A DNA stretch of 32,891 bases from a virus: the IMG/VR virus record IMGVR_UViG_3300037189_008153, positions 1 through 32,891 of that record; one strand, given 5' to 3'. The number at the start of each line of letters is the position of its first letter. Position 1 is the first letter of the stretch. Below are positions 1,597-24,332 of the stretch, piece after piece. The notes under the pieces are model-generated. The model did no database searches. It was given only the letters and a program-made list of their open reading frames with translations, and had not been told where the DNA came from. The position numbers and the translations under genes were made by a program.

Positions 1597-1686
1597 TGGC
1601 GGAACGGGTGAGATTCGAACTCACGGAACTATTTCTAGTTCGGTCATTTAGCAAACGACTGCGATAGGCCACTCTGCCACCGCTCC
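1597..1686 (-). tRNA. tRNA-Ser(GCT)
   Basis: Acceptor GGAGCGG pairs with CCGTTCC, the discriminator is G and CCA is encoded. The anticodon loop TTGCTAA gives GCT (AGC/AGU codons). There is a long class II variable arm, and the T-arm GTGAG-TTCGAAT-CTCAC is perfect. It lies between the small Gly/aromatic-rich protein and GMP reductase, isolated from the main tRNA array. Confidence 0.93.
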
Positions 1687-1689
1687 TTA

Positions 1690-1872
1690 TTACATATACT
1701 TCTTAATCATGATTGGACCAAATCGCCAGTATTCATATGGTGCGGCACCATAAAGATAACCGCCACCATTGAATCTGAAACCACTGCCGAAAAGTTTACC
1801 TTTCCAACCAACCCAATTCACAAATACTTTACCAAATTTTTTAGCCAATGTCAACTCGCCATTCTTTAACAT
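1690..1872 (-). CDS. Small Gly/aromatic-rich protein of unknown function
   Basis: 60 aa if it starts at the ATG at 1872, which has AGGTG seven bases upstream. An upstream in-frame start at 1914 would overlap the previous gene by 74 bases, so I prefer 1872; the overlap is then 32 bases. The N-terminal half is basic (LAKKFGKVF). The C-terminal half is rich in Gly, Tyr, Phe and Trp (GGGYLYGAAPYEYWRFG). There is no transmembrane segment and I recognise no family. The stop lies three bases from tRNA-Ser. Confidence 0.55.
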   Translation of the reverse strand: MLKNGELTLAKKFGKVFVNWVGWKGKLFGSGFRFNGGGYLYGAAPYEYWRFGPIMIKKYM

Positions 1873-2359
1873 CTGTATCACCTTCACGGCGAACAGAAAC
1901 AGTGCGACCATCATTCAGCATGAAATCAACACCTGTGTTTTCATCTAATGCTCTTGAGTAATAGAAACCATCTGTTGACTGAAATCTGAAAAATGGACAA
2001 CCAACAGTAGGATTATATACCGAAGCAACCAATCCATCACCAATATTATCACCACGAGAAGTTACCTGTTGACAACGAGCATATACATCCATCTCGAACA
2101 AACTATCGATACCTTGTAGAATGTCTTGAAGCCAGTCAAGGCTAAAGCTAACATCATCAGCACCAGTCAATTCTGGGAAGTTTCTTACATCTGTATTCTT
2201 GTCGATTGTCGATGAAGTCTTAGTCTGCGGATCTGGTGTTGCCATACGAACACTATAGATTGTTGAATCTGGCCAATCTGGATTGTTACGAATGACAAGT
2301 CTCGAATCTTTTCGAAGCCATGCTGTCCATCTATTAAATAATGTGATTAATAAGTTCAT
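1841..2359 (-). CDS. Conserved-looking phage protein, unknown function
   Basis: 172 aa from the ATG at 2359, chosen because AAGGAG sits nine bases upstream and the ATG overlaps the preceding TGA (ATGA). The N-terminus is basic and amphipathic (LFNRWTAWLRK). The rest is soluble and acidic, with three cysteines and no recognisable catalytic motif. It is probably translated together with the YkuK-like gene before it. I do not recognise the family. Confidence 0.72.
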   Translation of the reverse strand: MNLLITLFNRWTAWLRKDSRLVIRNNPDWPDSTIYSVRMATPDPQTKTSSTIDKNTDVRNFPELTGADDVSFSLDWLQDILQGIDSLFEMDVYARCQQVTSRGDNIGDGLVASVYNPTVGCPFFRFQSTDGFYYSRALDENTGVDFMLNDGRTVSVRREGDTDVKEWRVDIG

Positions 2360-2841
2360 GCTACTCTCCTTGAGATAATATCTTTTAGTCTGTCTGCACA
2401 ATACGAAGCTGCCCACGCATCTGGCTTGACCATAGGCACAACATTACACATACCACGAATATAACCAGTTGCTTCCTGTATTACACAAGATGAACCATGC
2501 TTTTGATTTGGATTAATATCAAGATGGATTTCTACTTCTCTATCTTCAAGAACATCAGCTAAATCTAGATAGAGTTGTGCAGTTTTCATCACTTCATTCA
2601 TCAGTCGCATACGAGGCTTATCTTTTTGCTGGTCATAGTCTCTTTCACGTATCACTTCGCCAAAGACGCGACAGCCGCGGTTACCATCAATGTGGACAAC
2701 AACGACATTGGTATAATCAGCATGCCATACGCCATCAATACAGAGGCGTTCCGAGTCGCCGCCGATATAGATTCGAGTTGATGGGGATTGAGATTGAATG
2801 AATGATTTGACTTCATCAAGGTCTATCTTTTTTCTTTGCAT
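2356..2841 (-). CDS. YkuK-like (DUF458) RNase H-fold protein
   Basis: 161 aa from the ATG at 2841. Upstream starts (2880, GTG 2886) would only lengthen the overlap with the cytidylyltransferase gene. The protein matches the DUF458/YkuK family, a predicted RNase H-like nuclease group of unclear function. It has IYIGGDSE with the first acidic residue of the fold, the second strand YTNVVVVHIDG, then EIHLDINP and the terminal VKPDAWAASYCAD. The acidic residues (D in GGDSE, D in LDINP, D in KPDAW) are where RNase H-fold catalytic residues are expected. It could trim RNA or process RNA/DNA hybrids, but that is inference from fold only. Confidence 0.75.
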   Translation of the reverse strand: MQRKKIDLDEVKSFIQSQSPSTRIYIGGDSERLCIDGVWHADYTNVVVVHIDGNRGCRVFGEVIRERDYDQQKDKPRMRLMNEVMKTAQLYLDLADVLEDREVEIHLDINPNQKHGSSCVIQEATGYIRGMCNVVPMVKPDAWAASYCADRLKDIISRRVA

Positions 2842-3241
2842 GTTCAATGCGCTTTCGTAATTCTGAGGAACTATAACCATGGTCACGTTTGTTGAAATAA
2901 TATTCCATACTTTTTAGATGATGCCCTGTAAATGGCTTGTCTTTGTATTCAGCACCTAAGATACGAATGTCTATCGGCAACATACAAAGCAAATCAAATA
3001 GTTCACCTTCAGTATTATATATTATAATCTCATCAACATACTTACATGCACGAACCTGTAACTGTCTTTCAATGATATTTTGCACAGGTTTGTTTTTATC
3101 TGGACGGTCAATTGAAGGATCCGTTTGAATACCTACAATCAACCAATCGCATTGATTCTTGGCTTCTTCTAACATTGCAACATGCCCTGCATGGAACAAA
3201 TCGAATGTAGAACATGTGAAGCCTATAATCTTATTTTTCAT
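2816..3241 (-). CDS. TagD-like cytidylyltransferase (glycerol-3-phosphate type)
   Basis: 141 aa from the ATG at 3241, with GAGGA nine bases upstream; the in-frame extension beyond it reads through tRNA-Leu and is not coding. This is the nucleotidyltransferase fold of TagD: FTCSTFDLFHAGH carries the HxGH motif near residue 18, and GYSSSELRKRI near the C-terminus matches the family's ISSTxLR motif. TagD joins CTP and glycerol-3-phosphate to make CDP-glycerol. Related enzymes activate ethanolamine-phosphate or sugar-phosphates, so the substrate is not settled. With the PlcP-like and GDPD-like genes it may belong to a glycerophosphate theme. Confidence 0.82.
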   Translation of the reverse strand: MKNKIIGFTCSTFDLFHAGHVAMLEEAKNQCDWLIVGIQTDPSIDRPDKNKPVQNIIERQLQVRACKYVDEIIIYNTEGELFDLLCMLPIDIRILGAEYKDKPFTGHHLKSMEYYFNKRDHGYSSSELRKRIEHAKKKDRP

Positions 3242-3262
3242 TGTTAGTTTCCTCATAATAAA

Positions 3263-3339
3263 TGGTGCGCTAGGGGAGACTCGAACTCCCAAAACTTAGT
3301 TTCTAAGACTAATATGTATACCAATTCCATCACCAGCGC
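3263..3339 (-). tRNA. tRNA-Leu(TAG), with a class I-size variable loop
   Basis: 77 nt with CCA. Acceptor GCGCTGG pairs with CTAGCGC, and the discriminator is A. The anticodon stem TTAGT/ACTAA closes the loop CTTAGAA, giving TAG (reads CUA, not an amber suppressor). The D-arm looks leucine-like (GATGGAATTGGTA). The variable region is only GTTTT, whereas bacterial tRNA-Leu normally has a long class II arm. Confidence 0.85.
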
Positions 3340-3344
3340 AATAT

Positions 3345-3420
3345 TGGTAGGCGATGAGAGATTCGAACTCCCGACATCCTGCGTGTAAAGCAGGAGCAAC
3401 TACCGCTGTGCTAATCGCCC
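3345..3420 (-). tRNA. tRNA-Val(TAC)
   Basis: Acceptor GGGCGAT, CCA encoded. The anticodon stem CCTGC/GCAGG closes the loop TTTACAC or CTTTACA, giving TAC. T-arm GGGAG-TTCGAAT-CTCTC. It is five bases from tRNA-Leu and seven from tRNA-Gly, so the three are probably cut from one transcript. Confidence 0.92.
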
Positions 3421-3427
3421 GTATTAC

Positions 3428-3502
3428 TGGAGCGGAAGATGGGATTCGAACCCACGACAACTTGCTTGGCAAGCAAGGACTCTACCACTGAGCTACCTCC
3501 GC
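3428..3502 (-). tRNA. tRNA-Gly(GCC), overlapping the end of the Agt-like gene
   Basis: Acceptor GCGGAGG pairs with CTTCCGC, CCA encoded. The anticodon loop TTGCCAA is closed by CTTGC/GCAAG. T-arm GTGGG-TTCGAAT-CCCAT. The first 21 bases of the tRNA also encode the last six codons and stop of the glycosyltransferase gene upstream. Confidence 0.93.
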
Positions 3503-4498
3503 ATAATCAACAAGATTAGACTTGAATTGTTTCCAAACCGAACGCCAGTTGAATTTATCTTTGGCTATACTAGCGCACTTTTCACGGTCTGTCAAGAGTG
3601 CTTTCTGTATAGCCTTATATATGTTGTCATCCACAGCACCAAAATTATCATCAATGATATCTATTGGACCTTGAACAGGATAAGCGGCTACAGGAGTTCC
3701 GTTGCATAACGCTTCTATGATGACAAGACCATATGTATCTTTTCTGCTTGTAAAGACAAAACAATCTGCTTTATGATACTCTTTTGCTAACTTCTGCCCA
3801 TGTAATGCACCTGTAAATCTTACATGCGGATATTTCTTTTTCAAATCTTCTAGTATTGGCCCATCACCAACAAGAACCAAATCAAACTTTGTATGGTCTA
3901 ACTCACAGAATGCTTCAAGATTTTTTTCTTTCGACACTCGACCAACAGATAGCAGAACAGGTTTGTCACTTCTTTTGATATGTGTATTATGGTCGATTAT
4001 CTTTTCCACATTTACACCACGAGACAGATATTTTATCTCTGCTTTAACACCAATCTTGATTAGATAATCTGCAATAGATTTTGTTGTAACCATAACTTGA
4101 CCATGCTCGTGAAACCAACGAACATATGCTCTTGTTATCCATTTTGGAATATGTAATATATCTTTTGCAATATCATCCCACTGAGTATGATATGCAGTTG
4201 TATAAACTTCTTTTCTGAATGCTATTCTTGCTAACAGACCGAGTGGTCCTTCTGTCGCAACATGAAGATGGTCTGGATTAAAATCACGAATCATCTTAAT
4301 CATACCAAAAGGTATTGCAAGAAAGATTTCTGGATATTTTGGTGCTGATATTGTTTTGAAGAGCAATGGGTGTATAACAAGAACTTCCCAACCATCGATT
4401 TTGGCTTGCTTGACAATATTATCAAGAGTTGTTACTACACCATTAATTTGAGGAAACCATGCATCTGTTACGATGCAGAGTTTTGTTGGTTTTTCCAT
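3482..4498 (-). CDS. GT4 glycosyltransferase, Agt-like (diacylglycerol glycosyltransferase candidate)
   Basis: 338 aa, a complete GT-B enzyme. The N-terminal half starts IVTDAWFPQINGVVTTL, then LHVATEGPLGLLAR and TAYHT near residue 102. The C-terminal half has SVGRVSKEKN (184-193), LVGDGP and the donor site SRKDTYGLVIIEALCNGTP near 251-269. This block order and wording match the alphaproteobacterial family that includes Agt, which puts glucose or glucuronic acid on diacylglycerol during phosphate starvation; mannosyltransferases of the MgtA/PimB type are relatives. It overlaps the PlcP-like gene by 31 bases, and plcP and agt are also neighbours in such bacteria. The start at 4498 has GGGAAA upstream; 4513 is possible. 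The stop lies inside tRNA-Gly, so the last residues AEVAQW are read from tRNA sequence. Confidence 0.85.
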   Translation of the reverse strand: MEKPTKLCIVTDAWFPQINGVVTTLDNIVKQAKIDGWEVLVIHPLLFKTISAPKYPEIFLAIPFGMIKMIRDFNPDHLHVATEGPLGLLARIAFRKEVYTTAYHTQWDDIAKDILHIPKWITRAYVRWFHEHGQVMVTTKSIADYLIKIGVKAEIKYLSRGVNVEKIIDHNTHIKRSDKPVLLSVGRVSKEKNLEAFCELDHTKFDLVLVGDGPILEDLKKKYPHVRFTGALHGQKLAKEYHKADCFVFTSRKDTYGLVIIEALCNGTPVAAYPVQGPIDIIDDNFGAVDDNIYKAIQKALLTDREKCASIAKDKFNWRSVWKQFKSNLVDYAEVAQW

Positions 4499-5217
4499 AC
4501 TATTATTTCCCATGTACCGTCTAGATGTTCTACTAGTGCGGTGCAAGATTCAACCCAATCACCACAATTCATATAAACCACATCATCAATCTTGCGTATA
4601 TTGGCATGATGTATATGACCACAAATAATTCCATTCGCCTCTTTAGATTTAGCATAAGCTGATAGATTTTGTTCATAGTTGCCTATAAAGTTAACTGCTT
4701 CTTTGACTTTATACTTTAACCATGCACTGACTGACCAGTAAGGTAGTCCAAACCAAGACCTTATCTTTGATACGATTATGTTGAGACTTATTGACACATC
4801 ATATGCCCATGCACCAAGATGGCTGAGCCATTTTATATTATTAATGACGGCATCAAACTCGTCCCCATGCATGACGATATATTTTTTGCCGTCAACACCA
4901 ATGTGGGTGTCGTTTCTAAGTAATTCGACATTCCCAAATTGGTGTTCACCGAATGCTCGTAAAAATTCATCGTGATTGCCTGGAATATAAATGACACGAG
5001 TATTTTTACGGGCGCGGCGTAGAAACTTTTGTATTACATCATTATGGTCTTGAGGCCAATAAAAAGAACGACCGAGTGACCAGCCGTCTATGATATCACC
5101 AACAAGATACAGTTTTTCACATTCAAATGATTTTAGAAACTCAAGCAATAAATTGGCCTGAGACATTTTTGTTCCTAAATGAACGTCTGATATGAATACT
5201 GTTTTATATTGCTTCAT
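4468..5217 (-). CDS. PlcP-like metallophosphoesterase (phospholipase C type; annotated LpxH-like)
   Basis: 249 aa from the ATG at 5217. A complete calcineurin-like metal site is visible: D11 and H13 (SDVH), D41 (VGDIID), N81/H82 (GNHDE), HGDEFD near 127, and GHIHH near the C-terminus. Family blocks FYWPQDHNDVIQKFLRRAR, LPYWSVSAWLK and NCGDWVESCTALVEH match, from memory, the alphaproteobacterial PlcP group often labelled UDP-2,3-diacylglucosamine hydrolase. PlcP of Sinorhizobium cleaves phosphatidylcholine and related lipids to diacylglycerol when phosphate is scarce. The overlapping Agt-like gene would use that product. No ribosome binding site precedes the ATG; a TATAAATA motif ends five bases before it. 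A true LpxH role is the main alternative. Confidence 0.85.
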   Translation of the reverse strand: MKQYKTVFISDVHLGTKMSQANLLLEFLKSFECEKLYLVGDIIDGWSLGRSFYWPQDHNDVIQKFLRRARKNTRVIYIPGNHDEFLRAFGEHQFGNVELLRNDTHIGVDGKKYIVMHGDEFDAVINNIKWLSHLGAWAYDVSISLNIIVSKIRSWFGLPYWSVSAWLKYKVKEAVNFIGNYEQNLSAYAKSKEANGIICGHIHHANIRKIDDVVYMNCGDWVESCTALVEHLDGTWEIIVWKNQQNSAS

Positions 5218-5222
5218 GCATG

Positions 5223-5230
5223 TATTTATA
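5223..5230 (-). promoter_or_regulatory. Late-promoter motif TATAAATA before the PlcP-like gene
   Basis: Exact T4-type late promoter octamer between tRNA-Met/Ile and the PlcP-like gene. With T4 geometry the transcript would begin at 5217, the A of the start codon. No -35 element is seen. Confidence 0.5.
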
Positions 5231-5237
5231 ATCTGTA

Positions 5238-5312
5238 TGGTGCCCAAGGATGGAATCAAACCATCTACCTAATGCTTATGAGACATTCGTTCTATCAATG
5301 AACTACTTGGGC
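5238..5312 (-). tRNA. tRNA with anticodon CAT (Met or Ile2), copy 1
   Basis: Acceptor GCCCAAG pairs with CTTGGGC, CCA encoded. Anticodon stem AATGT/GCATT, loop CTCATAA. The T-loop is TTTGATT rather than TTCGAAT, with stem GATGG/CCATC. It lacks the three G-C pairs of an initiator anticodon stem, so it is elongator Met or lysidine-type Ile; the sequence alone does not decide. Confidence 0.88.
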
Positions 5313-5316
5313 AAAT

Positions 5317-5400
5317 TGGCGGAGGTACAAGGAATCGAACCATCAACCTTGCGGTGGCAGGCTTTTCAAGAGCCTTTGAGCACCTTGCTCGCATACCTCC
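5317..5400 (-). tRNA. tRNA-Ser(TGA), weak T-stem
   Basis: 84 nt. Acceptor GGAGGTA/TACCTCC, discriminator G, CCA encoded. Anticodon stem AGGCT/AGCCT with loop CTTGAAA. The class II variable arm has an ACC-GCAA-GGT hairpin. The T-stem GATGG/CCTTG has only three of five pairs. Confidence 0.87.
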
Positions 5401-5406
5401 ATAAAC

Positions 5407-5489
5407 TGGTGCTGGATGAGAGACTCGAACTCCCGATGTTTGTATCCCGCCTTACAAAAGCGGTGCAGTCGCCACTGTGCCAATCCAGC
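5407..5489 (-). tRNA. tRNA-Thr(TGT), with class II-like arms
   Basis: 83 nt. Acceptor GCTGGAT/ATCCAGC, discriminator A, CCA encoded. Anticodon stem CCGCT/GGCGG closes TTTGTAA, so TGT is the only well-paired reading. The 1-72 G-C and 2-71 C-G pairs suit ThrRS. The variable region is about 12 nt (GAT-ACAAAC-ATC) and the D-arm resembles Ser/Tyr tRNAs, unusual for Thr. Confidence 0.8.
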
Positions 5490-6184
5490 TAAATGCTATT
5501 TCTTCTTTTTCGAACAGGAATGTTTCTCTCTTTCAGTATTCTGGAAAAGTAACCATTACCAGCTCTAACTCCTACTAAACCAAAATGTTTCAGTGTCTTG
5601 TCTATAGATTTGATATTCTGATAATATATAATCATATCTTCAAGATTTTCATCAATCTTTTTTATGTTTCCATTCTTATCATTCTTTTTACATATATCAG
5701 AACAGTATATCTCTAATTTTTTTCTTTCAAAAGTTGAACCGCAAGTTTTACATTTCACATTATACAATTCAAAATTTTGTATTCGACCTTCTTTCCAACC
5801 TTCAGGTAAAGATTCGATTTTTTTTATTTTCTTATTCTTCTTTAAGTCTTTATTATGTATCCATCTAGAACCAAGATTTATATTTTTTTGATCCTCACTT
5901 CGCATGGCCGAAAACTTTCTTCTCAACCATCCATATAGTTTATTTGACGGTCTTTTAGGAATCATCATCATTGCCGCATGTATCAGTTTTTTATTGTCTG
6001 GATACATTTTGACCAATAACTGATGGGCCAAATAATGTTCTTCAGGTGTTAAATCAACTAAATTATCAGAACTATCGTCACCACCTAAACATCTTGGTAT
6101 GATATGATGCGACTCAGCATACTCAGATATATTTCTAAATTTGGCTCTTATGACCAATAATTCATAGTGCTTTTTATAATCCAT
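5489..6184 (-). CDS. HNH endonuclease with C-terminal zinc finger (free-standing homing type)
   Basis: 231 aa. The HNH core is near the N-terminus: ESHHIIPRCLGG (H26, H27), DNLVDLTPEEHYLAH (N41, H50). The middle is very basic. A treble-clef-like finger CKTCG...YCSDICKK follows, and the C-terminal part (GNGYFSRILKERNIPVRKR) may bind DNA. Such free-standing endonucleases cut related phage genomes and spread by recombination, often between tRNA genes in T4-like phages. TATAAATA 32 bases upstream suggests late expression. The TAG stop shares its last base with the first base of tRNA-Thr. The richer A/T content compared with neighbours fits a mobile gene. Confidence 0.85.
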   Translation of the reverse strand: MDYKKHYELLVIRAKFRNISEYAESHHIIPRCLGGDDSSDNLVDLTPEEHYLAHQLLVKMYPDNKKLIHAAMMMIPKRPSNKLYGWLRRKFSAMRSEDQKNINLGSRWIHNKDLKKNKKIKKIESLPEGWKEGRIQNFELYNVKCKTCGSTFERKKLEIYCSDICKKNDKNGNIKKIDENLEDMIIYYQNIKSIDKTLKHFGLVGVRAGNGYFSRILKERNIPVRKRRNSI

Positions 6185-6215
6185 TATAAACTCTTTTGTA
6201 AACTACATATACTTC

Positions 6216-6223
6216 TATTTATA
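6216..6223 (-). promoter_or_regulatory. Late promoter TATAAATA before the HNH gene
   Basis: Exact T4-type late octamer with no -35 box at the right spacing. By T4 geometry the start would be near 6210, leaving a 26-base leader to the HNH ATG. Confidence 0.65.
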
Positions 6224-6248
6224 ATTTACAAATTTTCAACGATGTTAC

Positions 6249-6285
6249 GATTCTCTGTTGCGCTTCTACGAGAGGCGTGAGAATC
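6249..6285 (-). ncRNA. Strong RNA hairpin just after tRNA-Asn
   Basis: GATTCTC (outer) pairs with GAGAATC over 7 bp. An inner stem GCGCTTCT/AGAGGCGT (8 bp with two G-U) has a three-base loop, with one four-base bulge between the stems. No U-run follows, so it is not a standard terminator. It may stop decay or mark processing of the tRNA transcript. Confidence 0.6.
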
Positions 6286-6291
6286 ATATAT

Positions 6292-6366
6292 TGGCTCCGT
6301 GGGCTGGATTCGAACCAGCGACCAATTGATTAACAGTCAACTGCGCTACCACTGCGCCACCACGGA
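6292..6366 (-). tRNA. tRNA-Asn(GTT)
   Basis: Acceptor TCCGTGG/CCACGGA, discriminator G, CCA encoded. Anticodon stem GTTGA/TCAAT with loop CTGTTAA. T-arm GCTGG-TTCGAAT-CCAGC. It follows the structured element 6377-6457 by ten bases. Confidence 0.94.
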
Positions 6367-6376
6367 ATAATTTCGT

Positions 6377-6457
6377 ATGATGAGAAGCGGAGCAATGCTC
6401 TATTAGCCTAGGGTATAAAAAGTGAGCGAATGATACCGAAGGACGCTTTCTCATCAT
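6377..6457 (-). ncRNA. Candidate structured RNA at the head of a tRNA transcript
   Basis: The ends form an inverted repeat (ATGATGAGAA-GCG against CGC-TTTCTCATCAT, 13 pairs, one bulge). Inside are GGTAT/ATACC (5 bp) and GAGC-AAT-GCTC (4 bp). The element begins about where transcription from the promoter at 6464-6492 should start and ends ten bases before tRNA-Asn. It has no tRNA T-loop and no ORF. T4 encodes comparable non-tRNA stable RNAs (species 1 and 2) in its tRNA cluster, so a stable RNA is plausible but unproven. Confidence 0.6.
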
Positions 6458-6463
6458 GTTTAT

Positions 6464-6492
6464 ATATTACTACTTATTCGCATATTTGTCAA
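6464..6492 (-). promoter_or_regulatory. Sigma70-like promoter (TTGACA, 17 nt, TAATAT)
   Basis: Perfect -35 TTGACA at 6487-6492, 17-base spacer, -10 TAATAT at 6464-6469 followed by ATA. It shares TTGACAAAT and TAATATATA with the promoter at 9823-9851. It would transcribe the structured RNA and tRNA-Asn. Confidence 0.8.
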
Positions 6493-6529
6493 GTCTTTTT
6501 ATTTCAACTTTACAAATATCTTCATTTCA

Positions 6530-6603
6530 TGGCATCAGTGCTAGGATTCGAACCCAGACAAAAGGTTTTGGAGACCTTTGTGCTACCGTTACACCACACT
6601 GAT
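6530..6603 (-). tRNA. tRNA-Trp(CCA)
   Basis: Acceptor ATCAGTG/CACTGAT, discriminator G, CCA encoded. Anticodon stem AAGGT/ACCTT with loop CTCCAAA. T-arm CTGGG-TTCGAAT-CCTAG. Confidence 0.94.
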
Positions 6604-6618
6604 AGTTTTCTATTTATT

Positions 6619-6694
6619 TGGTACCGTCTGAGGGATTCGAACCCCCGACAAAGAGATTAAGAGTCTCCTGCTCTACCAACTGAGCTAACGGTCC
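6619..6694 (-). tRNA. tRNA-Lys(CTT), overlapping the preceding gene
   Basis: Acceptor GGACCGT/ACGGTA-type pairing, CCA encoded. Anticodon stem GGAGA/TCTCT with loop CTCTTAA. T-arm GGGGG-TTCGAAT-CCCTC. Its first ten bases encode the last codons and stop of the gene at 6685-7134. An AATAAATA motif lies just downstream. Confidence 0.92.
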
Positions 6695-7134
6695 TTAACT
6701 AATCTTCCATGATAATGATGGCTGCATGTATTACGATAACCACCATCTTCTGTGGGCCAACCACAAGAAACTTGATTGAAACATTCGGGTTCATCACACA
6801 TAGAAAGAACTTTTTTCAATGCTTCAATTTTATTTTCTTTTACGATACGCTTAACTTCATCCATTTGTTCAATATCAAATTCATTTGTGATAGTCATACC
6901 GCCAGCAGAATAAAGTGGTACATATGCTTCTGGCCCAAAACCAAAACGGTCATAAATCAATGTGCGAAAAGAACCACCTTCTTGTGCATGGTCGACAATA
7001 TGTTTGATAGCCCATGCAGTAACAGCAATCTTTACATCATTAGGACATTCATCTGCTAACTGTTTCATTTCTTTATCTGCTTCTGCATATGCTTCTCTTA
7101 GTGCATCAAGGACTTCTTTAAAACTATCATTCAT
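6685..7134 (-). CDS. Unknown phage protein with putative C-terminal zinc site
   Basis: 149 aa. GGAG eight bases before the ATG supports the start. The N-terminal part is helical and acidic (LDALREAYAEADKEMKQLADEC). The C-terminal 40 residues hold four cysteines and three closely spaced histidines (CDEPECF, VSCGW, TCSHHYHG), consistent with metal binding. No family is recognised. The final codons GAC CGT TAG lie inside the 5' end of tRNA-Lys(CTT), so cutting the tRNA free would remove the stop codon. Confidence 0.75.
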   Translation of the reverse strand: MNDSFKEVLDALREAYAEADKEMKQLADECPNDVKIAVTAWAIKHIVDHAQEGGSFRTLIYDRFGFGPEAYVPLYSAGGMTITNEFDIEQMDEVKRIVKENKIEALKKVLSMCDEPECFNQVSCGWPTEDGGYRNTCSHHYHGRLVKDR

Positions 7135-7151
7135 TTCGCTTCTCCATAAAT

Positions 7152-7227
7152 TGGTAGACCCAACAGGATTTGAACCTGTAACCTCTCGGTTAAAAGCCGC
7201 TTGCTCTACCTATTGAGCTATGGGTCC
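7152..7227 (-). tRNA. tRNA-Lys(TTT), shortened anticodon stem
   Basis: Acceptor GGACCCA/TGGGTCT (first pair G-U), CCA encoded. Loop CTTTTAA gives TTT. The anticodon stem AGCGG/CCGAG keeps only three of five pairs; CCGCT would be fully paired. T-arm ACAGG-TTCAAAT-CCTGT is intact. It may be decaying or simply divergent. Confidence 0.85.
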
Positions 7228-7231
7228 ATAT

Positions 7232-7306
7232 TGGCTGGGGAAGATGGATTCGAACCACCGTTCGCTGAGTCAAAGTCAGATGTCCTACCTGTTAGACGAT
7301 TCCCCA
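7232..7306 (-). tRNA. tRNA-Gln(TTG)
   Basis: Acceptor TGGGGAA/TTCCCCA, discriminator G, CCA encoded. Anticodon stem TCTGA/TCAGC (outer pair mismatched) with loop CTTTGAC. The T-loop is TTCGAAT. Five bases from tRNA-Lys(TTT). Confidence 0.92.
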
Positions 7307-7321
7307 ATAAAATGGTTGGCA

Positions 7322-7651
7322 TTATTTTGAAATAAAACCGTGCCTGTTATTTTTTTGGTGTTGAATTAAATCTTCATTGAATGGTACTGGATTTGTAATT
7401 TCCAAATTGCGGAAATGAACTTTTCTGTGACAATGAGAACATAGTAACACGCATTTTTTTGCTTCGGCTACCAATTTTTCCCATTTTGTTATTTTAGATG
7501 CTATTCCAAAATCTTTTCCTTCTAGATGATGAAAATCATAGATGATAGCATCATCTTCTATACCACAACAAGCACACTTTGAACCAAATCCTTCAACGAG
7601 TTTGATTTTTGTGTTTTTGCGCCATTCTTTTATTCTTTCATAATTAGGCAT
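7322..7651 (-). CDS. Small HNH endonuclease
   Basis: 109 aa. It contains the zinc-coordinated HNH fold: CACCG (26-30), YDFHHLEGK (HH 41-42) and CVLLCSHCHRKVH (C71, C74, H79). The N-terminus is basic and helical (IKEWRKNTKIKLVEG) and may contact DNA. AAGGAG eight bases before the ATG gives a strong start, and an exact TATAAATA lies 31 bases upstream. Unlike the 231-aa HNH gene it has no second zinc finger. It sits between tRNA-Gln and tRNA-Ile, a typical place for a free-standing homing endonuclease; whether it is mobile is inference. Confidence 0.87.
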   Translation of the reverse strand: MPNYERIKEWRKNTKIKLVEGFGSKCACCGIEDDAIIYDFHHLEGKDFGIASKITKWEKLVAEAKKCVLLCSHCHRKVHFRNLEITNPVPFNEDLIQHQKNNRHGFISK

Positions 7652-7681
7652 TCTTTACTCCTTAGATTATCGGTTATCACC

Positions 7682-7689
7682 TATTTATA
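7682..7689 (-). promoter_or_regulatory. Late promoter TATAAATA before the small HNH gene
   Basis: Exact late octamer. There is no -35 box 17 bases upstream. Expected start near 7676, giving a leader of about 24 bases that contains the AAGGAG site. Confidence 0.65.
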
Positions 7690-7708
7690 ATCGAAAGAGT
7701 ATTTTTTC

Positions 7709-7782
7709 TGGTTGTCCTACTTGGTTACGATCCAAGGTCTACCGCTTATCAGGCGATTGCTCTCCCATTGAGCTATAGGACA
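7709..7782 (-). tRNA. tRNA-Ile(GAT), altered T-loop
   Basis: Acceptor TGTCCTA/TAGGACA, discriminator A, CCA encoded. Anticodon stem ATCGC/GCGGT with loop CTGATAA. The T-stem CTTGG/CCAAG closes ATCGTAA, so the usual T54-A58 pair is replaced by A54 and T58. Confidence 0.88.
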
Positions 7783-7789
7783 ATAAAAA

Positions 7790-7874
7790 TGGTGTGAACG
7801 GTAGGACTCGAACCTACGAAGTCATAGACGAGGGGTTTACAGCCCCTACCCTTTGCCACTCGGGTCACATTCAC
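7790..7874 (-). tRNA. tRNA-Tyr(GTA)
   Basis: 85 nt class II tRNA. Acceptor GTGAATG/CGTTCAC, CCA encoded. Anticodon stem GGGG/CCCC with loop CTGTAAA. T-arm GTAGG-TTCGAGT-CCTAC. Confidence 0.93.
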
Positions 7875-7884
7875 ATTGAATTAG

Positions 7885-7967
7885 TGAAGGTTCCCTAGCG
7901 CACTCAGGTCACCTACAACCCATCAACTCAAAAATTCTTTGAAGGTTCCACAACGAGTCACCTACAA
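7885..7967 (-). repeat. Two imperfect direct repeats in a 100-nt gap between tRNAs
   Basis: Each copy has TGAAGGTTCC and, 13 or 7 bases later, GTCACCTACAA (7885-7918 and 7940-7967, plus-strand reading). AGGT/ACCT pairing inside each copy and TCAAA/TTTGA between them could form hairpins. The gap between tRNA-Tyr and tRNA-Ala is exactly 100 bases and contains no ORF. Confidence 0.55.
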
Positions 7968-7974
7968 TCACACT

Positions 7975-8049
7975 TGGTGGACCTTCAGAGAATCGAACTC
8001 TGGCTTTCGCCGTGCAAGGGCGACATGCTACCACTATCATCAAAGGCCC
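7975..8049 (-). tRNA. tRNA-Ala(TGC)
   Basis: Acceptor GGGCCTT/AAGGTCC, discriminator A, CCA encoded. Anticodon stem TCGCC/GGCGA with loop CTTGCAC. T-arm CAGAG-TTCGATT-CTCTG. Confidence 0.93.
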
Positions 8050-8056
8050 GAACTAA

Positions 8057-8155
8057 TAAGATAAGACGCTCTCAGATTTATGTGAGATACTTAATGCCGG
8101 CATGCGATTACCGGAATGTTCTTGTGATTTCGCATATCACTACCGTCTTATCTTA
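8057..8155 (-). ncRNA. Candidate structured RNA in a tRNA slot
   Basis: A perfect 12-bp closing stem (TAAGATAAGACG with CGTCTTATCTTA) encloses three arms: GTGAT/ATCAC (5 bp, 7-nt loop), CCGG/CCGG (4 bp) and TCTCA/TGAGA (5 bp, 8-nt loop). This is a cloverleaf-like plan, but there is no T-loop, anticodon arm or CCA. It is three bases from tRNA-Pro and seven from tRNA-Ala, the same spacing the tRNAs have among themselves. No ORF fits. A stable phage RNA processed like the tRNAs is the simplest reading. Confidence 0.68.
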
Positions 8156-8158
8156 ACT

Positions 8159-8235
<77 letters not shown>

Positions 8236-8263
8236 AATAAGGAACCAACAATGTCAATCAGCC

Positions 8264-8298
8264 AAAAAGAAACCCCGAAACTTTCGCTTCGAGGTTTT
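8264..8298 (-). terminator. Rho-independent terminator after the 30-aa ORF
   Basis: A 10-bp stem AAACCTCGAA/TTTCGGGGTT (one T-G pair) with a short purine-rich loop is followed by TCTTTTT. It lies 28 bases after the first hairpin and 28 bases before tRNA-Pro, so tRNA-Pro needs either read-through or another start. Confidence 0.8.
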
Positions 8299-8310
8299 GT
8301 AAACTTAAAA

Positions 8311-8327
8311 TGTAACTTCGTGTTACA
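8311..8327 (-). terminator. Hairpin at the stop codon of the 30-aa ORF
   Basis: Perfect TGTAAC/GTTACA stem with a five-base loop, followed by ATTTTAAGTTT. It includes the TAA stop of the small ORF. It is a weak terminator or a decay-blocking hairpin ahead of the stronger terminator. Confidence 0.5.
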
Positions 8328-8415
8328 TCGTCACAAAACCCCACACATCGCCCTCCCATGATGGGTGACGTTGTGTTTTAGGCTCACTAATATTATAAAG
8401 GCACGAAGTCGTCAT
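8323..8415 (-). CDS. 30-aa small protein in its own transcription unit
   Basis: Small ORF starting MTTSCLYNISEPK and ending VWGFVTM. AGAGGA sits six bases before the ATG. A sigma70-like promoter at 8439-8469 puts the transcript start about 20 bases upstream, and two hairpins follow directly, so the ORF has promoter, ribosome site and terminator of its own. No transmembrane segment; no family recognised. It is rich in polar residues with two tryptophans. Short early proteins that modify host enzymes are common in large phages, which would fit, but function is unknown. Confidence 0.6.
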   Translation of the reverse strand: MTTSCLYNISEPKTQRHPSWEGDVWGFVTM

Positions 8416-8438
8416 TTGTTTTCCTCTTTATTGTATTC

Positions 8439-8469
8439 TATTTATAACACATTCATCGGGAATTGTCAA
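8439..8469 (-). promoter_or_regulatory. Promoter combining TTGACA/TATAAA with the late octamer TATAAATA
   Basis: -35 TTGACA at 8464-8469 lies inside the last codons of the gene at 8453-8782. The 17-base spacer leads to TATAAA (8441-8446), which is part of TATAAATA (8439-8446). It could be read by host sigma70 early and by the phage late factor later. Confidence 0.7.
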
Positions 8470-8782: not shown

Positions 8783-8783
8783 T

Positions 8784-9329: not shown

Positions 9330-9344
9330 CATATACTCCAGTTT

Positions 9345-9420
9345 TGGTAGAGGCGGCAGGATTCGAACCTGCGGTAACACCGTTATGAGCGGCGGGCCTT
9401 AACCACTTGGCTACACCTCC
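9345..9420 (-). tRNA. tRNA with anticodon CAT (Met or Ile2), copy 2
   Basis: Acceptor GGAGGTG/CGCCTCT with a G-U first pair, discriminator A, CCA encoded. Anticodon stem CGCCG/CGGTG with loop CTCATAA. T-arm GCAGG-TTCGAAT-CCTGC. Two CAT tRNAs suggest one for Met and one for AUA Ile; which is which is open. Confidence 0.9.
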
Positions 9421-9426
9421 GAAACT

Positions 9427-12088: not shown

Positions 12089-12293
12089 TCTTTTTCTCCC
12101 ATGCACCATGAGTCACGCACCAATCGTAAATACAATTTTGCTCGGTAATCAATTCGTCGCCTTCACCATATTTGGTAATCATTCTTGCATACCAGTGGTT
12201 CCAATAATCATCAAATATTTCTTTTTCAGTTTTTTCTGTAACAATATTATAGTTTGTTTCTTCTGAATATTCATGATAGCAATATGTTTTCAT
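12081..12293 (-). CDS. Conserved small phage protein, unknown
   Basis: 70 aa. AAGGTG lies six bases upstream, and the ATG shares one base with the helicase stop (TGATG). The segments IFDDYWNHWYARMITKYGE and NCIYDWCVTHGAWE resemble a small protein found in many large phages, from memory. It is rich in aromatic residues and acidic. Its position directly after the helicase suggests a replication-linked role, but function is unknown. Confidence 0.72.
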   Translation of the reverse strand: MKTYCYHEYSEETNYNIVTEKTEKEIFDDYWNHWYARMITKYGEGDELITEQNCIYDWCVTHGAWEKKNA

Positions 12294-13687
12294 CACGACA
12301 CCTTCAATTGTTTGAACTTATCTGTTTTACTTTTATTGAAACCGTTCATTGGTTTTATCTGTGATGGTTGCCCACTATCAATCAAATCATCCTGTGCTGA
12401 TTGTTCAACATCAAATAACTTCATCTTTGCTCTATCAATACCAATAACAAATCTTTTGTTTGTTGTCGGATCATTATAACGATTCTTCAACTGTTTAATC
12501 ATAAGCTGACCCAAATCTTCAAGTTGTTCGGTCGATATCAAAGCAAACATAAAGTCGGCTGTTGCAGGCAAACCAAACGATTCAGATGTATCTGTCAAAT
12601 CAACATCTGAGTTAGAATAACCACTTCTTGTTGTCTGTGTAGCAGAAACAAGTGGCACTTCAAACTCAACTGCCAAACCACGAAGTTCTTCTGCAATAGA
12701 TTTGATATAGGTATATGAATTAACAGAACCGCCCTGTTTCACACGAGATGACATACAGATATTCAGATAATCGATAAAGATAATATCTGGCTTGAATGAC
12801 CTCTTCAAACTCAATTCATTCAACAAAGATTTGAAGTGGATTGCAGATGCACCAGCAGTAGGATATTCTTTGATAATCAGTTTGCCATTAGTCTTAGATT
12901 TGATTGTTTCTGCTTTCTTTTCATACATCATCTTAGGCAATTGCATCAAGTCATCAAATGTAATGTTCATAAGATTGGCATCGATACGCTTTGCAACTTC
13001 TTCTTCGGCTAATTCAAGAGTTATATACAAAACATTCTTGCCTTGATTGAGACAAGCGGCTGCCATATGACACATGAACAAAGACTTACCGACACCAGTG
13101 CCAGCAAGAGCGATGTTCAGTGTCTTTTTAGGTAGACCATTGTTTGTAATCTTATTAAAGAATTTCAAATCAAATGGAATCTTTTCTTGAACTCTGTGAT
13201 AATACTCATATCTATCTTCATACTGTTCAAGATAGTCATGCCCAACATTTGGGTCAAATGATACAGATAGTGCATCGGACAATAACTTTGGAATAGCACC
13301 CTTTGTCAGACCACCAGTATTATTCTTATCATTCATCACTTCAATAGATTTCATGATGGCATGATAGATGGCTTTCTCTTGACAGAACTTTTCAGTGTTG
13401 TCAGTAAGCCAATCGATGTTGGTATCTACATTATCATTCTTTAAGTCTGTGATTGTTTGCTTGATGACTTTTATTTGGTCATCTTTAATTGCAAGATTAT
13501 CGACTTCGATTTCAAGTGCATCGAATGTGGGTGGTTTATTGTATTTGAGAATAAAGTCCCGCACCTCGCGGTACAGGACTCTATCTTCTTCTGATGTGAA
13601 ATACTCATCCTTTAGAAAGGGAAGAACTTTGCGAACAAAGTTTTCATTCTTCAACAAATTCTTCAGGATCGTCTTTTCTAAGTTCAT
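12293..13687 (-). CDS. 41: Replicative DNA helicase, T4 gp41-type (DnaB family)
   Basis: 464 aa, like T4 gp41 (475). It forms the hexameric 5'-3' helicase that unwinds DNA at the fork and works with the primase. The N-terminal domain (1-150) is followed by the RecA-like ATPase: Walker A AGTGVGKS (195-202), the conserved ITLELAEEEVAKR, Walker B IIFIDYLNI, and the glutamine sensor VSATQTTRSGYS. GAGG ten bases upstream supports the start, which overlaps the gp40-position gene by 44 bases. The order UvsX, small gene, helicase is the T4 order. Confidence 0.93.
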   Translation of the reverse strand: MNLEKTILKNLLKNENFVRKVLPFLKDEYFTSEEDRVLYREVRDFILKYNKPPTFDALEIEVDNLAIKDDQIKVIKQTITDLKNDNVDTNIDWLTDNTEKFCQEKAIYHAIMKSIEVMNDKNNTGGLTKGAIPKLLSDALSVSFDPNVGHDYLEQYEDRYEYYHRVQEKIPFDLKFFNKITNNGLPKKTLNIALAGTGVGKSLFMCHMAAACLNQGKNVLYITLELAEEEVAKRIDANLMNITFDDLMQLPKMMYEKKAETIKSKTNGKLIIKEYPTAGASAIHFKSLLNELSLKRSFKPDIIFIDYLNICMSSRVKQGGSVNSYTYIKSIAEELRGLAVEFEVPLVSATQTTRSGYSNSDVDLTDTSESFGLPATADFMFALISTEQLEDLGQLMIKQLKNRYNDPTTNKRFVIGIDRAKMKLFDVEQSAQDDLIDSGQPSQIKPMNGFNKSKTDKFKQLKVS

Positions 13688-13964
13688 TATCAGGTGCCTC
13701 TATAGATTCAAGTATCATTGCATTCAATATAAGACCGGCGTGTTGCTGAAATCGTTCATCTTTTCTGAGACCGACCATAGTGTGTTCGCCAGTTTCATAT
13801 AACTCATAATCAAATTTCAGTTTAGCAGAACCGTTTTCTTGTTCCTGAATAGCAACTGTAGTGTATCTTAGTATAACGCCTTTATACGGTCCTGTCAACA
13901 TTTCGATGGGTACCGTATCTTCTTTCATGTCATCACGAAATTTAAAATCTTCACCTAAAATCAT
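13644..13964 (-). CDS. Small protein at the T4 gene 40 position
   Basis: 106 aa between UvsX and helicase, where T4 has gene 40 (114 aa, a head-vertex assembly chaperone). It contains [22 protein letters not shown], a beta-rich block, and [21 protein letters not shown] believe phages with this gene order carry similar proteins, but homology to gp40 rests on position and size. GAGGAT precedes the ATG, which overlaps the UvsX stop (ATGA). An acidic C-terminus ([11 protein letters not shown]) overlaps the helicase start. Confidence 0.65.
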
Positions 13965-15019
13965 TCTTCATCCTCCACTTCTTCATCTGCTACATTTGAT
14001 TTACCGTAGAGAAATTCTTTCTTACACGCTTCGTCAATGGCATCAAGAACATCTTGAGTGAAATACTTTTCAGGTGTTTTCTTGATTTGACTCTCAAAGG
14101 CTTTTTCACCAGTAGGAAATTCATAACGAGTAGAGACTTTCTTGATGATGCCGAACTTCTCAGCCAAATCTAACAAACCATAATATTGGTCTAGACCTTC
14201 TGCATAGTTCAGCCATGTCTCAACTTTCTTATCTTCGATTGTCAGACGAGCTTTCTTGGTATGTGCTGTAATGACTGCACCTGTGCGCCCATCATCATCA
14301 TCAAGTTGCTTGTCTTTCTTCTTTGAAAGAAACAGAATTGTTGATGCGGCATATTCAAGCCCAGAACCGCCACCCATCTTCTTTGTAGGAACATATGCGC
14401 CAACAACATCATAAACGTGATTGGTTACAATGAGAGGAACTTTAGCTTTACCAAGTTTAAGAGTGAGAACACGAAATGCACCACGAACTAATTGCGCTCG
14501 TGTCATATCACGGGTATCTTTACCATCCGCAATATCTGCCATTTCTTTATCGGTTGAAAGATTGCCGAGAGAATCAAGAACAAACATCATTGGAGGTCTA
14601 TCATCTTTACCCTCAAGATATTTGTCAAGAATTTTTACTGCTTGTGTGCGAAATTCTTGTATAGTAGCAACAGGGACAATAGCCACTCGCTTTGTATCAA
14701 CGTCCCTGTCTGTAAGCATTTGTTTCGAGATTGCTGATTCGGATTCGAAGTAGAACACAAATCCGTTTGCGTTGTCTCTGAGGAATTGTCTGACGATATT
14801 GATTGCGTAGAAGGTTTTACCTGTGCTTGGCTCACCTGCAAGTGCTGTGACTTTATTTGCAGGTATACCGCCGTAGATGCTACCACTAAGCAGAGCATTG
14901 AGAGAATAAGAACCGGTACCAATAAAGCCCGTAACGTCACCAGCTTCAATACCGTCCTCAACAATTCCTGCGTATTCATTACCTGTTTCCTTCAACAGAT
15001 TATTAAACATATTAGACAT
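13961..15019 (-). CDS. uvsX: UvsX recombinase (RecA-like)
   Basis: 352 aa. UvsX coats single-stranded DNA and drives strand exchange for recombination-dependent replication. Walker A GEPSTGKT is at 62-69, Walker [12 protein letters not shown] near 145, and [14 protein letters not shown] near 208-221 corresponds to the RecA L2/sensor region. The [12 protein letters not shown] block is typical of UvsX. A strong AAGGAG precedes the ATG. The very acidic C-terminus (DEEVEDEE) matches the regulatory tail of the family. It lies directly downstream of DNA polymerase. Confidence 0.93.
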
Positions 15020-15043
15020 AAGATTCTCCTTATTATGTGATTA

Positions 15044-15059
15044 CCAAGAATCTCCTTGG
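15044..15059 (-). promoter_or_regulatory. Leader hairpin carrying a decoy ribosome site before uvsX
   Basis: CCAAG-GAGATT-CTTGG forms a 5-bp hairpin with GAGATT in the loop, containing AAGGAG about 35 bases before the start codon. The true site AAGGAGAATCTT lies 20 bases further on and repeats the same words. It may be a translational operator, as phages use for replication genes. Confidence 0.4.
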
Positions 15060-15073
15060 CATGAGTATATATG

Positions 15074-17638
15074 TTACGAGAAAAAAGATTCCAGTGAATT
15101 TACATGTTCTGTTTTCCAACCAATACTATCAAGAATGATTTTCAACGGTTCTAGAAACGATTTGTCGAATTGTGTATTATGGTCGATGTATTGGTGCAAA
15201 TCAAACTCTTTTGGCAAAGCGTTTGGAAAAGATATGATGTTCGATTGAATTGTATTAGGCTCTTTGAGATACAAAAACTTAATCTTCTCACCTTCTTTGA
15301 TAGCTTGATATTTCTTTGAAAGTTTCTTCATCTTGAGAAGATTGTTATAGAGCAAAGCACCTCTCACATGAATAGGTGTGCCTTTACCAAAAACAGTTTT
15401 AGAATCTCCAAACTTATCTAGCCCATTTACACCACGAGGGAACGAGATTTCTTCTGCTGGAAGTTGTGAGAACTCTACACGAAAGTCGTCGATGAACTTG
15501 ATAACATCGGCTTCCATTCCGTTAAAGATAACATCGATAGACTCTTTAAGTTTGATGCGACAAGCCGCGGGTGTTGATGATTTGACCATTTCAAGACCCA
15601 TAACTTTAATTTTTGGTTTTGCATACTCAACACCTTCGTTATTATACACGTTCATGATATAGCGTTTCTTAGCTGTCCAAATTGCTTTGTCAGCCAAGGC
15701 TTCACGCTTCATTATCATTTTTTGAGTAAAAGCATTAACATATCCAGCAAGAGATTGGTAACTTTCGTCAATAACTTGTTGCAACTTATGCTCACAGACC
15801 TTGTCAAGGTAGGCGATAATTTGTTTTGTGTCAGCATCGGGATTCTGAGCAACAATAGTCTTGTTGACCAGTTTATCAAGAGTAAGGTACATCGAATCAG
15901 TATCACACGCAATTACGTAATCCTCGTTTTCAGTTTTCAGTATCTTATTTAGATACTCGTTCATGTGTTTTTCAATCCAACGAATGGATAACTGACCGGC
16001 TGTTGTGATTGCTGTTGCATGACGAATATCAAAGAAACGAAAGAACTCATTACCCAAAGCACCGTAAGCTGAGTTCAAACAAACTTTCTTAGCGAGTTGA
16101 AGGTTGTTATATCGTGAAATACGTTTTTCAATCTCAAATCTCTTATCTGGATCTGTTTCAGTTTCAAGTTCTTTCTTGGCTGCAATCGCTTTCTTCTTAT
16201 ATGCAGAACGGTCATTATACATATCTTCCATCATTTTAGGAAGAAAGCCCTGTTTCTTTGTAGAGAAGAACTGCCCGTTTGGTGTCAGTGTGTGGTCTTT
16301 CAGCCCCGATAAATCATTCCGCCTAGCAAGTAAGCTATCAACAGAGACCCGATTATGGATAATAGAATTGTGAGTATCGTCATAGTTTTCTGGTTCCAAG
16401 AAAGTTTCAGGTGAAATGTTGTATTGCATAATCAAATGTGGATACAGAGAGTTCAAGTCAAATGATGCAACCCAGTTATGCATACCAATAAGAGGGTCTT
16501 TGACAAATGCGCCCTCAAACATACTGTCTTTTCTGTTCTTGCTGTTTTGAGGAATTACGATATTGCGTTTCTTAAGTTCATTGAAGATAAGAATATCCCA
16601 CATGCGAACCTGTGTGAAAGCATCTTCATAGTTTGTCTTGCTGTCATATGCAAGAGTAAGAACCAATTCAATCAGCTTAAGTTTATCATCTAGAAATTCA
16701 ACAAGTTCAACGTCACGAATGTTATACTCAATAAACTTCTGATAATCGAGTTTATACAACTGGTGCAGATTTTCGTGTTCATCATATGACAGCTTACGTC
16801 CAACACCTTCAGCCGCACCGATGCTGTCGAGTTTATATGATTCTTGAGACTTGCCTTCTGGTGCATACTTTTTGTATAGGTCGATATAATCTAGCATCGA
16901 AATACCAAGTAGATTATATGTTTTGAACTGACGCCCCATATCAAGATTGACATTACGTTCATTGATAACACCCCAAGGCGAAAGTCTCTTCGCTTCTTGT
17001 TCGCCAAGAAGTTTTGTGATGCGATTGACAAGATATGGAATATCGAAAAGTTTTACGTTCCAACCTGTAATGATATCTGGATAATTGCTATTGCCAGACC
17101 ATTCATCAATAAATCTCTTGATGAGGTCTATCTCATCACGACACTTATAATAAGTCACATCGTTTCTGTCGTTTTGAAATATGCCACAACCAAACACTGT
17201 AAAACCCTTACGAGTCTTTACAGTGATAGCTGTGATAGGTTCATCTGCACGGTCTGGTTCAGGAAAACCATTCTCGCTACCAACTTCGATATCGATGTTT
17301 GCAACATTGATTTTTGTAATGTCCCAATCGATATCATCTGAAAAGTTTTCAGATATGAAACTGTATTCATGGCGAAGATTACCATAGATATTGAAACCTT
17401 CTACGCCTTCGTATTGATTAACAAAATCTCTAGTATCTTTGATGTTTCCTGGTTTAATCTCAGAAACATACTCGCCATGAATTGTTGTGAAGTTTGTTGG
17501 CTTCTTAGAGTTTACATACAGAGTTGGATTATAATCTATTCTTTTCTTCTCGTGTGTGCCTGTCATGTAGCCGCCTGCAATACCACGATACAAAATTCTT
17601 GAACCATAAACTTGGACGTTTGTATAAAATGCGGACAA
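15074..17638 (-). CDS. 43: DNA polymerase, T4 gp43-type (family B)
   Basis: 854 aa, one uninterrupted frame (T4 gp43 is 898). Proofreading motifs: Exo I NIDIEV (D116, E118), Exo II TGWNVKLFDIPY (D199), Exo III YNIRDVE (D309). Polymerase motifs: A SFDLNSLYP (D394), B QLAKKVCLNSAYGALGN (514-530), C CDTDS (D579, D581). The C-terminus SLESFFS is a sliding-clamp peptide like that of T4 gp43. The N-terminus MSAFYTNVQVYG aligns with T4 MKEFYISIETVG only if translation starts at a TTG codon (17638); the next in-frame ATG is 24 codons later. AGTAGG lies eight bases upstream. Slow initiation at TTG would keep polymerase levels low. Confidence 0.95.
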   Translation of the reverse strand: MSAFYTNVQVYGSRILYRGIAGGYMTGTHEKKRIDYNPTLYVNSKKPTNFTTIHGEYVSEIKPGNIKDTRDFVNQYEGVEGFNIYGNLRHEYSFISENFSDDIDWDITKINVANIDIEVGSENGFPEPDRADEPITAITVKTRKGFTVFGCGIFQNDRNDVTYYKCRDEIDLIKRFIDEWSGNSNYPDIITGWNVKLFDIPYLVNRITKLLGEQEAKRLSPWGVINERNVNLDMGRQFKTYNLLGISMLDYIDLYKKYAPEGKSQESYKLDSIGAAEGVGRKLSYDEHENLHQLYKLDYQKFIEYNIRDVELVEFLDDKLKLIELVLTLAYDSKTNYEDAFTQVRMWDILIFNELKKRNIVIPQNSKNRKDSMFEGAFVKDPLIGMHNWVASFDLNSLYPHLIMQYNISPETFLEPENYDDTHNSIIHNRVSVDSLLARRNDLSGLKDHTLTPNGQFFSTKKQGFLPKMMEDMYNDRSAYKKKAIAAKKELETETDPDKRFEIEKRISRYNNLQLAKKVCLNSAYGALGNEFFRFFDIRHATAITTAGQLSIRWIEKHMNEYLNKILKTENEDYVIACDTDSMYLTLDKLVNKTIVAQNPDADTKQIIAYLDKVCEHKLQQVIDESYQSLAGYVNAFTQKMIMKREALADKAIWTAKKRYIMNVYNNEGVEYAKPKIKVMGLEMVKSSTPAACRIKLKESIDVIFNGMEADVIKFIDDFRVEFSQLPAEEISFPRGVNGLDKFGDSKTVFGKGTPIHVRGALLYNNLLKMKKLSKKYQAIKEGEKIKFLYLKEPNTIQSNIISFPNALPKEFDLHQYIDHNTQFDKSFLEPLKIILDSIGWKTEHVNSLESFFS

Positions 17639-24329: not shown

Positions 24330-24332
24330 ATA

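Follow-up and report, generated by a model that had tools for sequence, protein, structure and literature searches.

The plcP-agt operon of bacteria and the products of the SAR11 Agt are established: PlcP converts phospholipid to diacylglycerol, and Agt converts the diacylglycerol to glycolipid (PMC4796936, PMC8231724, PMC9239053). Control by PhoB through a Pho box is usual for the bacterial genes, though it is not found in every member. In Phaeobacter MED193 or a similar laboratory strain, complementation of a plcP deletion has served as a test of SAR11 PlcP (PMC4796936). Phage DNA contains much phosphorus, many waters hold little phosphate, and the known phage phosphate genes aid its import. 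The DNA analysed here, referred to as the window, is a stretch of 32,891 nucleotides from a virus (IMG/VR record IMGVR_UViG_3300037189_008153). An earlier reading of its letters, the first-pass annotation, had proposed that it carries a PlcP-like phosphodiesterase gene overlapping a gene for an Agt-like glycosyltransferase. Its account of the bacterial pair, in which phospholipids are exchanged for glycolipids under phosphate starvation, agrees with the three papers cited above.

The locus is similar to the plcP-agt operon of SAR11, Agrobacterium, Methylosinus and other Proteobacteria in its gene order, in the overlap or abutment of the two genes, and in the active-site residues of PlcP and Agt. 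The proteins belong to the same subfamilies in trees, and phosphate genes lie close by in some members. Unlike the bacterial operon, the module is carried by T4-like phages; its PlcP sequences form clades made up of viruses only, and its Agt branches are for the most part exclusively viral. The window pair has no Pho box and is part of a tRNA array, and other phages swap Agt for a GT2 enzyme. Cyanophages and other phages also carry auxiliary metabolic genes for phosphate (pstS, phoA, phoH and phoU), which resemble the module in being phage-borne, host-like and related to phosphorus supply, and some contigs show physical linkage of pstS and phoH to plcP-agt. However, these genes act on phosphate from outside the cell, by import or scavenging, whereas plcP-agt would draw phosphorus from the host membrane and replace the lipid. 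With LpxH (UDP-2,3-diacylglucosamine diphosphatase), the window PlcP shares the calcineurin-like fold and the metal site, and the nearest solved structures are those of LpxH. In contrast to LpxH, it falls in a separate clade and lacks the LpxH-type residues.

PlcP homologues are present in the Pelagibacter phage Mosig EXVC030M (Mosig_00120, MT647606 94129-94866; 49% identical to the window protein) and in the Synechococcus phage S-SRM01 (QPX48289, MW015081 210536-211240; 34% identical). Unlike the window gene, neither has an adjoining Agt, and they are annotated as UDP-2,3-diacylglucosamine hydrolase or diphosphatase. The S-SRM01 homologue occurs in a phage of Synechococcus; the bacterial lipid-remodelling literature reports that cyanobacteria largely lack PlcP. 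No paper on a phage plcP-agt module was found in the open-access literature searched, with subscription journals and preprints outside the scope of the search, and the first-pass statement that no such phage system had been described held within that literature. In two virome papers lpxH is named as a viral metabolic gene, and whether those genes correspond to plcP is undetermined. The enzymes are already known in bacteria; the new part is the carriage of a lipid-remodelling module by phages.

Organization of the gene pair

The plcP-like gene (4468..5217, minus strand) probably starts at ATG 5217, and its 249-aa product is a metallophosphoesterase that belongs to the PlcP family of phospholipases C. 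The mechanical ORF (4468-5259) opens at a TTG within tRNA-Met, and ATG 5217 is the start common to the relatives. The agt-like gene (3482..4513, minus strand) encodes a 343-aa GT4 diacylglycerol glycosyltransferase of the Agt subfamily. Its mechanical ORF (3482-4546) begins at TTG 4546, and the start is likely to be ATG 4513, which is kept in locus L020 (MGN..ME). With these starts, the two genes overlap by 46 nt (4468..4513, minus strand), and overlapping or abutting plcP and agt genes were also observed in many relatives. As expected of a plcP-agt operon, agt follows plcP immediately and on the same strand; the overlap is consistent with co-transcription and translational coupling, both of which are inferred.

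The pair is placed inside the phage tRNA array, between tRNA-Met (5238..5312, minus strand) just upstream of plcP and tRNA-Gly (3428..3502, minus strand) just downstream of agt. The last 21 nt of the agt ORF (3482-3502) are shared with the 5′ end of tRNA-Gly on the same strand, and processing of this tRNA would cut the tail of the agt mRNA. The first-pass annotation had described two intact-looking enzymes at 3482-5230, in the order and with the overlap of a plcP-agt operon. All of this held, with a slight correction to the start codons of the mechanical ORFs, now set at the two ATGs given above.

The phosphoesterase belongs to the PlcP family

The plcP ORF matched Metallophos/Metallophos_2 in Pfam above the gathering cut-offs (E 2e-13). 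A maximum-likelihood tree was built from 38 viral and 19 bacterial sequences and 5 LpxH outgroup sequences, with the bacterial comparators being orthologues from Rhizobiales, Pelagibacteraceae and others and not the characterised proteins themselves. In this tree LpxH was split from the phage and bacterial PlcPs at 100/100, and two genomes (L077 and L090) had a PlcP within the tree and their own LpxH in the outgroup. The window protein was located in a virus-only clade of 15 (94/90), while a second virus-only clade of 22 (87/91) held most other viral sequences and Mosig.

All seven metal-ligand positions, as inferred from LpxH, are present in the window protein (D11, H13, D41, N81, H117, H201 and H203), and these ligands are near-invariant across 148 viral and 80 bacterial PlcPs. 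At four positions that discriminate LpxH, the window protein has the PlcP-type residue (H82 versus R, E84 versus F, D122 versus R, and N217 versus V), and the phage proteins carry the PlcP residues H, E/D, D and N at the same positions. The LpxH model TIGR01854 scored 43 bits on the window protein and did not meet its cut-off of 190.

The nearest solved structures were those of LpxH both by sequence and by fold, probably because the PDB matches contain no PlcP structure. The AlphaFold model had a good core and a helical middle of low confidence, and its match to LpxH does not separate PlcP from the LpxH family. An LpxH identity for the window phosphoesterase was rejected on the basis of the tree, the residues and the sub-cut-off model score. 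The tree and the residues support its assignment to the PlcP family with an intact metal site; the Mn2+-dependent release of diacylglycerol from phospholipids is inferred.

The glycosyltransferase belongs to the Agt subfamily

The agt ORF matched Glycos_transf_1/Glyco_transf_4 in Pfam above the gathering cut-offs (E 2e-20). A profile of the viral glycosyltransferases detected an Agt orthologue at 350-397 bits in 9 of 10 PlcP-bearing bacterial genomes, with the next GT4s at 65 bits or less. The same profile detected no Agt orthologue in the remaining genome, that of Ensifer. Sinorhizobium is known to use PlcP for betaine lipids, and the absence of Agt from the Ensifer genome fits this published use. 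In the tree, the viral glycosyltransferases and bacterial Agt formed one clade against the other GT4s (91/85).

The SAR11 Agt (GTcp), whose dyad is His104-Asp256, is known from purification and mutagenesis (PMC8231724); the dyad aspartate corresponds to D270 in the numbering of the window ORF. The Pelagibacteraceae orthologue L093 agreed with the SAR11 Agt numbering at all 14 of the mutated positions checked. Twelve of the 14 mutated positions are unchanged in the window protein (H104, D256, G16, G82, G85, R163, R190, K195, T257, G259, E264 and W320), and the substitutions at the other two, T162S and F258Y, are conservative and also found in bacterial Agts. The AlphaFold model was confident (pLDDT 89.8) and matched GT4 structures, including MshA, in keeping with the GT-B fold required of an Agt. 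A generic GT4 reading was ruled out by the score gap and the tree. Together with the active-site residues, they support an intact GT4 enzyme of the Agt subfamily, for which the synthesis of glycosyl-diacylglycerol from a UDP-sugar is inferred.

The earlier claims about the two enzymes fared well. The presence of all PlcP metal ligands was confirmed (7/7), the GT4 donor site was found to be intact, with the two conservative substitutions relative to SAR11 Agt, and the Agt-like identity held in the phylogeny, where the protein shares the 91/85 clade with bacterial Agt. Clustering of the phosphoesterase with LpxH, which had been set beforehand as a refutation, did not occur, as the tree places it with PlcP at 100/100.

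The window is derived from a T4-like phage

A second, longer contig of 59.6 kb is 99.9% identical to the window over 30.8 kb and encodes gp23 (E 1e-146), the gp21 prohead protease, a UvsW-like helicase, a clamp loader and RegA. The window itself carries T4-type replication genes that are markers of T4-like phages, namely those for a DnaB-like helicase, UvsX and a family B DNA polymerase (12293..17638, minus strand). The DNA polymerase is 52% identical to those of T4-like cyanophages, and the major capsid protein is 70% identical to that of the pelagiphage Mosig and 67% identical to that of the Methylophilales phage Melnitz. The T4 core genes of the window and of the 99.9% identical contig show that the window contig is a genuine T4-like phage. 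A false viral contig was ruled out for the window by gp23 and the other core genes. The host is unresolved, with only hints provided by the GC content (37.7%) and by the capsid kinship to pelagiphages and Methylophilales phages.

Several other features of the window were observed. Twenty tRNA genes are present (1597-9586 and 20254-20327), nineteen of which form one array that has small genes and the plcP-agt pair mixed in. A Dps/ferritin-like protein is encoded at 29-472. The gene at 496-1581 encodes a GMP reductase, an enzyme uncommon in phages, that scored above both NCBIfam equivalog cut-offs and has relatives in the jumbo phages XacN1 and RAS14 and in the Caulobacter phage Cr30. A long sugar cluster (20839-31965, minus strand) encodes an NAD-dependent epimerase, a UDP-glucose/GDP-mannose dehydrogenase family protein, a HAD-nucleotidyltransferase fusion, an FkbM methyltransferase, a GT4 and a GT10 fucosyltransferase. 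It is possible that the dehydrogenase of this cluster feeds Agt, if UDP-glucuronic acid is its product; the dehydrogenase subtype is undetermined.

Distribution of the module among viruses

Profile scans of viral contigs with PlcP and with the glycosyltransferase each yielded more than 570 confirmed candidates, a number that is a lower bound, and the best 80 of each were examined. When the glycosyltransferase alone was used for the scan, PlcP was located upstream on the same strand in 69 of the 70 viral loci with room, mostly within about 150 nt. This fraction is biased upward somewhat, as the glycosyltransferase profile was first built from paired genes. Agt was located downstream in 41 of the 92 viral PlcP loci with room and in 39 of 77 bacterial PlcP loci. 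The two scans together gave 148 distinct viral PlcP loci: 98 with Agt, 22 with a GT2 family enzyme instead, 28 with neither within the DNA read at those loci, and none with both. The 28 loci without an adjoining Agt or GT2 indicate that the pair is not obligatory, and the conserved gene order in many independent viral contigs indicates that it is not due to chance.

Purifying selection was evident in 97 distinct viral pairs, with a median dN/dS of 0.064 for PlcP and 0.11 for the glycosyltransferase. The PlcP and glycosyltransferase distances were correlated (Mantel r 0.75, n = 97, p 0.001), which reflects joint retention and not direct interaction, because shared phage phylogeny would give the same result. 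The active sites were retained across 148 viral PlcP and 105 viral glycosyltransferase sequences. Either gp23 or the large terminase was found on 15 of 50 paired viral contigs, most of the contigs longer than 100 kb among them; the rest are fragments that do not allow a verdict. A match to an 'Acinetobacter phage' record lies among bacterial genes and was excluded as phage evidence. Our data support the view that plcP-agt is a widespread phage module, present in the T4-like window phage and in dozens of other viral contigs, and the scope of the first-pass annotation is corrected in this respect, as the pair is not peculiar to the window contig.

Two further observations concern the neighbours of plcP. 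A GT2 glycosyltransferase was often located directly upstream or downstream of Agt-less viral plcP genes (L120-L138 and L158-L185), and this partner may possibly be an alternative lipid glycosyltransferase. A RimK-like ATP-grasp ligase, whose role is unexplained, was observed in nine contigs, either between plcP and agt (L165, L180, L183, L227, L231, L232 and L250) or after agt (L007 and L111).

Links to phosphate

The pstS gene was located close to viral plcP in ten contigs, with three copies scanned and all scoring above the PstS equivalog cut-off, and phoH was located near viral plcP in six. In Mosig, a PstS-family gene divergently adjoins plcP. Pho-box-like sites, defined as YTGTMAT-N4-YTGTMAT with at least 13 of 14 positions matched, preceded 13 of 144 viral plcP genes (against an expectation of 0.06), 5 of 10 viral pstS genes and 1 of 646 control genes. 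When related loci were counted once, the numbers were 7 of 77 versus 1 of 330. These counts are suggestive only, as the consensus was relaxed after the first matches and near-identical contigs inflate the raw counts. Pho-box periodicity was also assessed with an unbiased direct-repeat test, in which no clear peak appeared at 11 nt, so that the motif scan is the only support for the Pho boxes. At four loci (L156, L211, L219 and L261), the Pho-box-like sites are followed by TAAATA-type sequences just before the plcP start codon, and these sequences resemble T4-type late promoters.

No Pho box was found upstream of the window pair (best match 9/14). Because the pair lacks this site and lies inside the tRNA array, phosphate control is not shown for the window phage. 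In the relatives, the pstS and phoH neighbours and the Pho-box-like sites support a phosphate linkage of the module, the Pho-box-like sites being only suggestive.

Discussion

The window pair is likely to be a phage-borne plcP-agt lipid-remodelling module that yields phosphorus from the host membrane. The identity of the genes, their intact active sites, their residence in a phage, the recurrent pairing, the purifying selection and the phosphate-gene neighbours in relatives are shown. In the proposed mechanism, PlcP would act during infection as a metal-dependent phospholipase C that cuts the head groups off host glycerophospholipids (PE and PG); diacylglycerol would stay behind in the membrane, and phospho-head-groups would be set free. 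In the next step, Agt would use a UDP-sugar to attach a hexose or a hexuronic acid to the diacylglycerol, and a bilayer-forming glycolipid would be restored, so that membrane volume and charge would be maintained until lysis. Because PlcP frees phospho-head-groups and not free phosphate, extra enzymes are needed, and host phosphatases are predicted to convert the freed phospho-alcohols to phosphate for phage DNA synthesis. By our own rough estimate, a small aquatic cell has a few million phospholipids in its membranes, and the phosphate needed for a burst of about twenty 170-kb genomes is of similar magnitude.

The module is without biochemical or lipidomic support, and the catalytic activity, the substrates and the timing of expression are inferred. 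The first-pass annotation had reasoned that a phage with both enzymes could take phosphate from host membranes while keeping the membrane intact; this logic survived the available tests, with activity, sugar, phosphate release and phage benefit remaining inferences.

Other explanations may be considered. The first is that PlcP and Agt are correctly identified, but that the benefit is something other than phosphorus, such as an altered surface charge, a block to superinfection, resistance to host or environmental attack on the membrane, or the tuning of lysis. The large sugar and surface cluster in the window (UDP-sugar dehydrogenase family protein, epimerase, fucosyltransferase and FkbM methyltransferase) and the lack of a Pho box at the window pair are in its favour. 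However, the pstS and phoH neighbours and the Pho-box-like sites of the relatives indicate phosphate, and the bacterial operon is a phosphate-starvation trait, and this explanation is considered unlikely.

Under a second explanation, which is very unlikely, the phosphoesterase would be a lipid A enzyme of the LpxH type or a general phosphodiesterase, and the glycosyltransferase would modify LPS or some other surface glycan. The solved-structure matches are to LpxH by sequence and fold, and the database entries of phage homologues bear the name UDP-2,3-diacylglucosamine hydrolase, but the 100/100 split in the tree, the PlcP-type residues, an LpxH model score far under the cut-off and the position of the glycosyltransferase in the Agt clade argue against it. 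It is likewise very improbable that the two are host genes caught by chance in the tRNA array and carried without function: the pair does sit between tRNA genes, a common insertion point, but the relatives have dN/dS values far below 1, retained active sites, recurrent pairing and virus-only clades.

The phage-borne module for phosphorus and lipid remodelling thus remains the preferred reading. A bolder version of it, which in our judgement could as easily fail as hold, is that a modular and partly PhoB-controlled phosphate-mining cassette (pstS, plcP and an Agt- or GT2-type lipid glycosyltransferase) is shared by many phages that are only distantly related to one another, most of them T4-like and some with genomes larger than 300 kb. 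With this cassette, the phages would dismantle host phospholipids during infection and replace them with glycolipids, resulting in lipid-remodelled virocells.

If the module acts as proposed, it would represent a different route to phosphorus, in which the host membrane is mined and repaired with sugar lipids, and infected cells would be a natural source of glycolipids. Viral genes that are catalogued as K03269 lpxH under LPS biosynthesis may be phosphate-acquisition genes.
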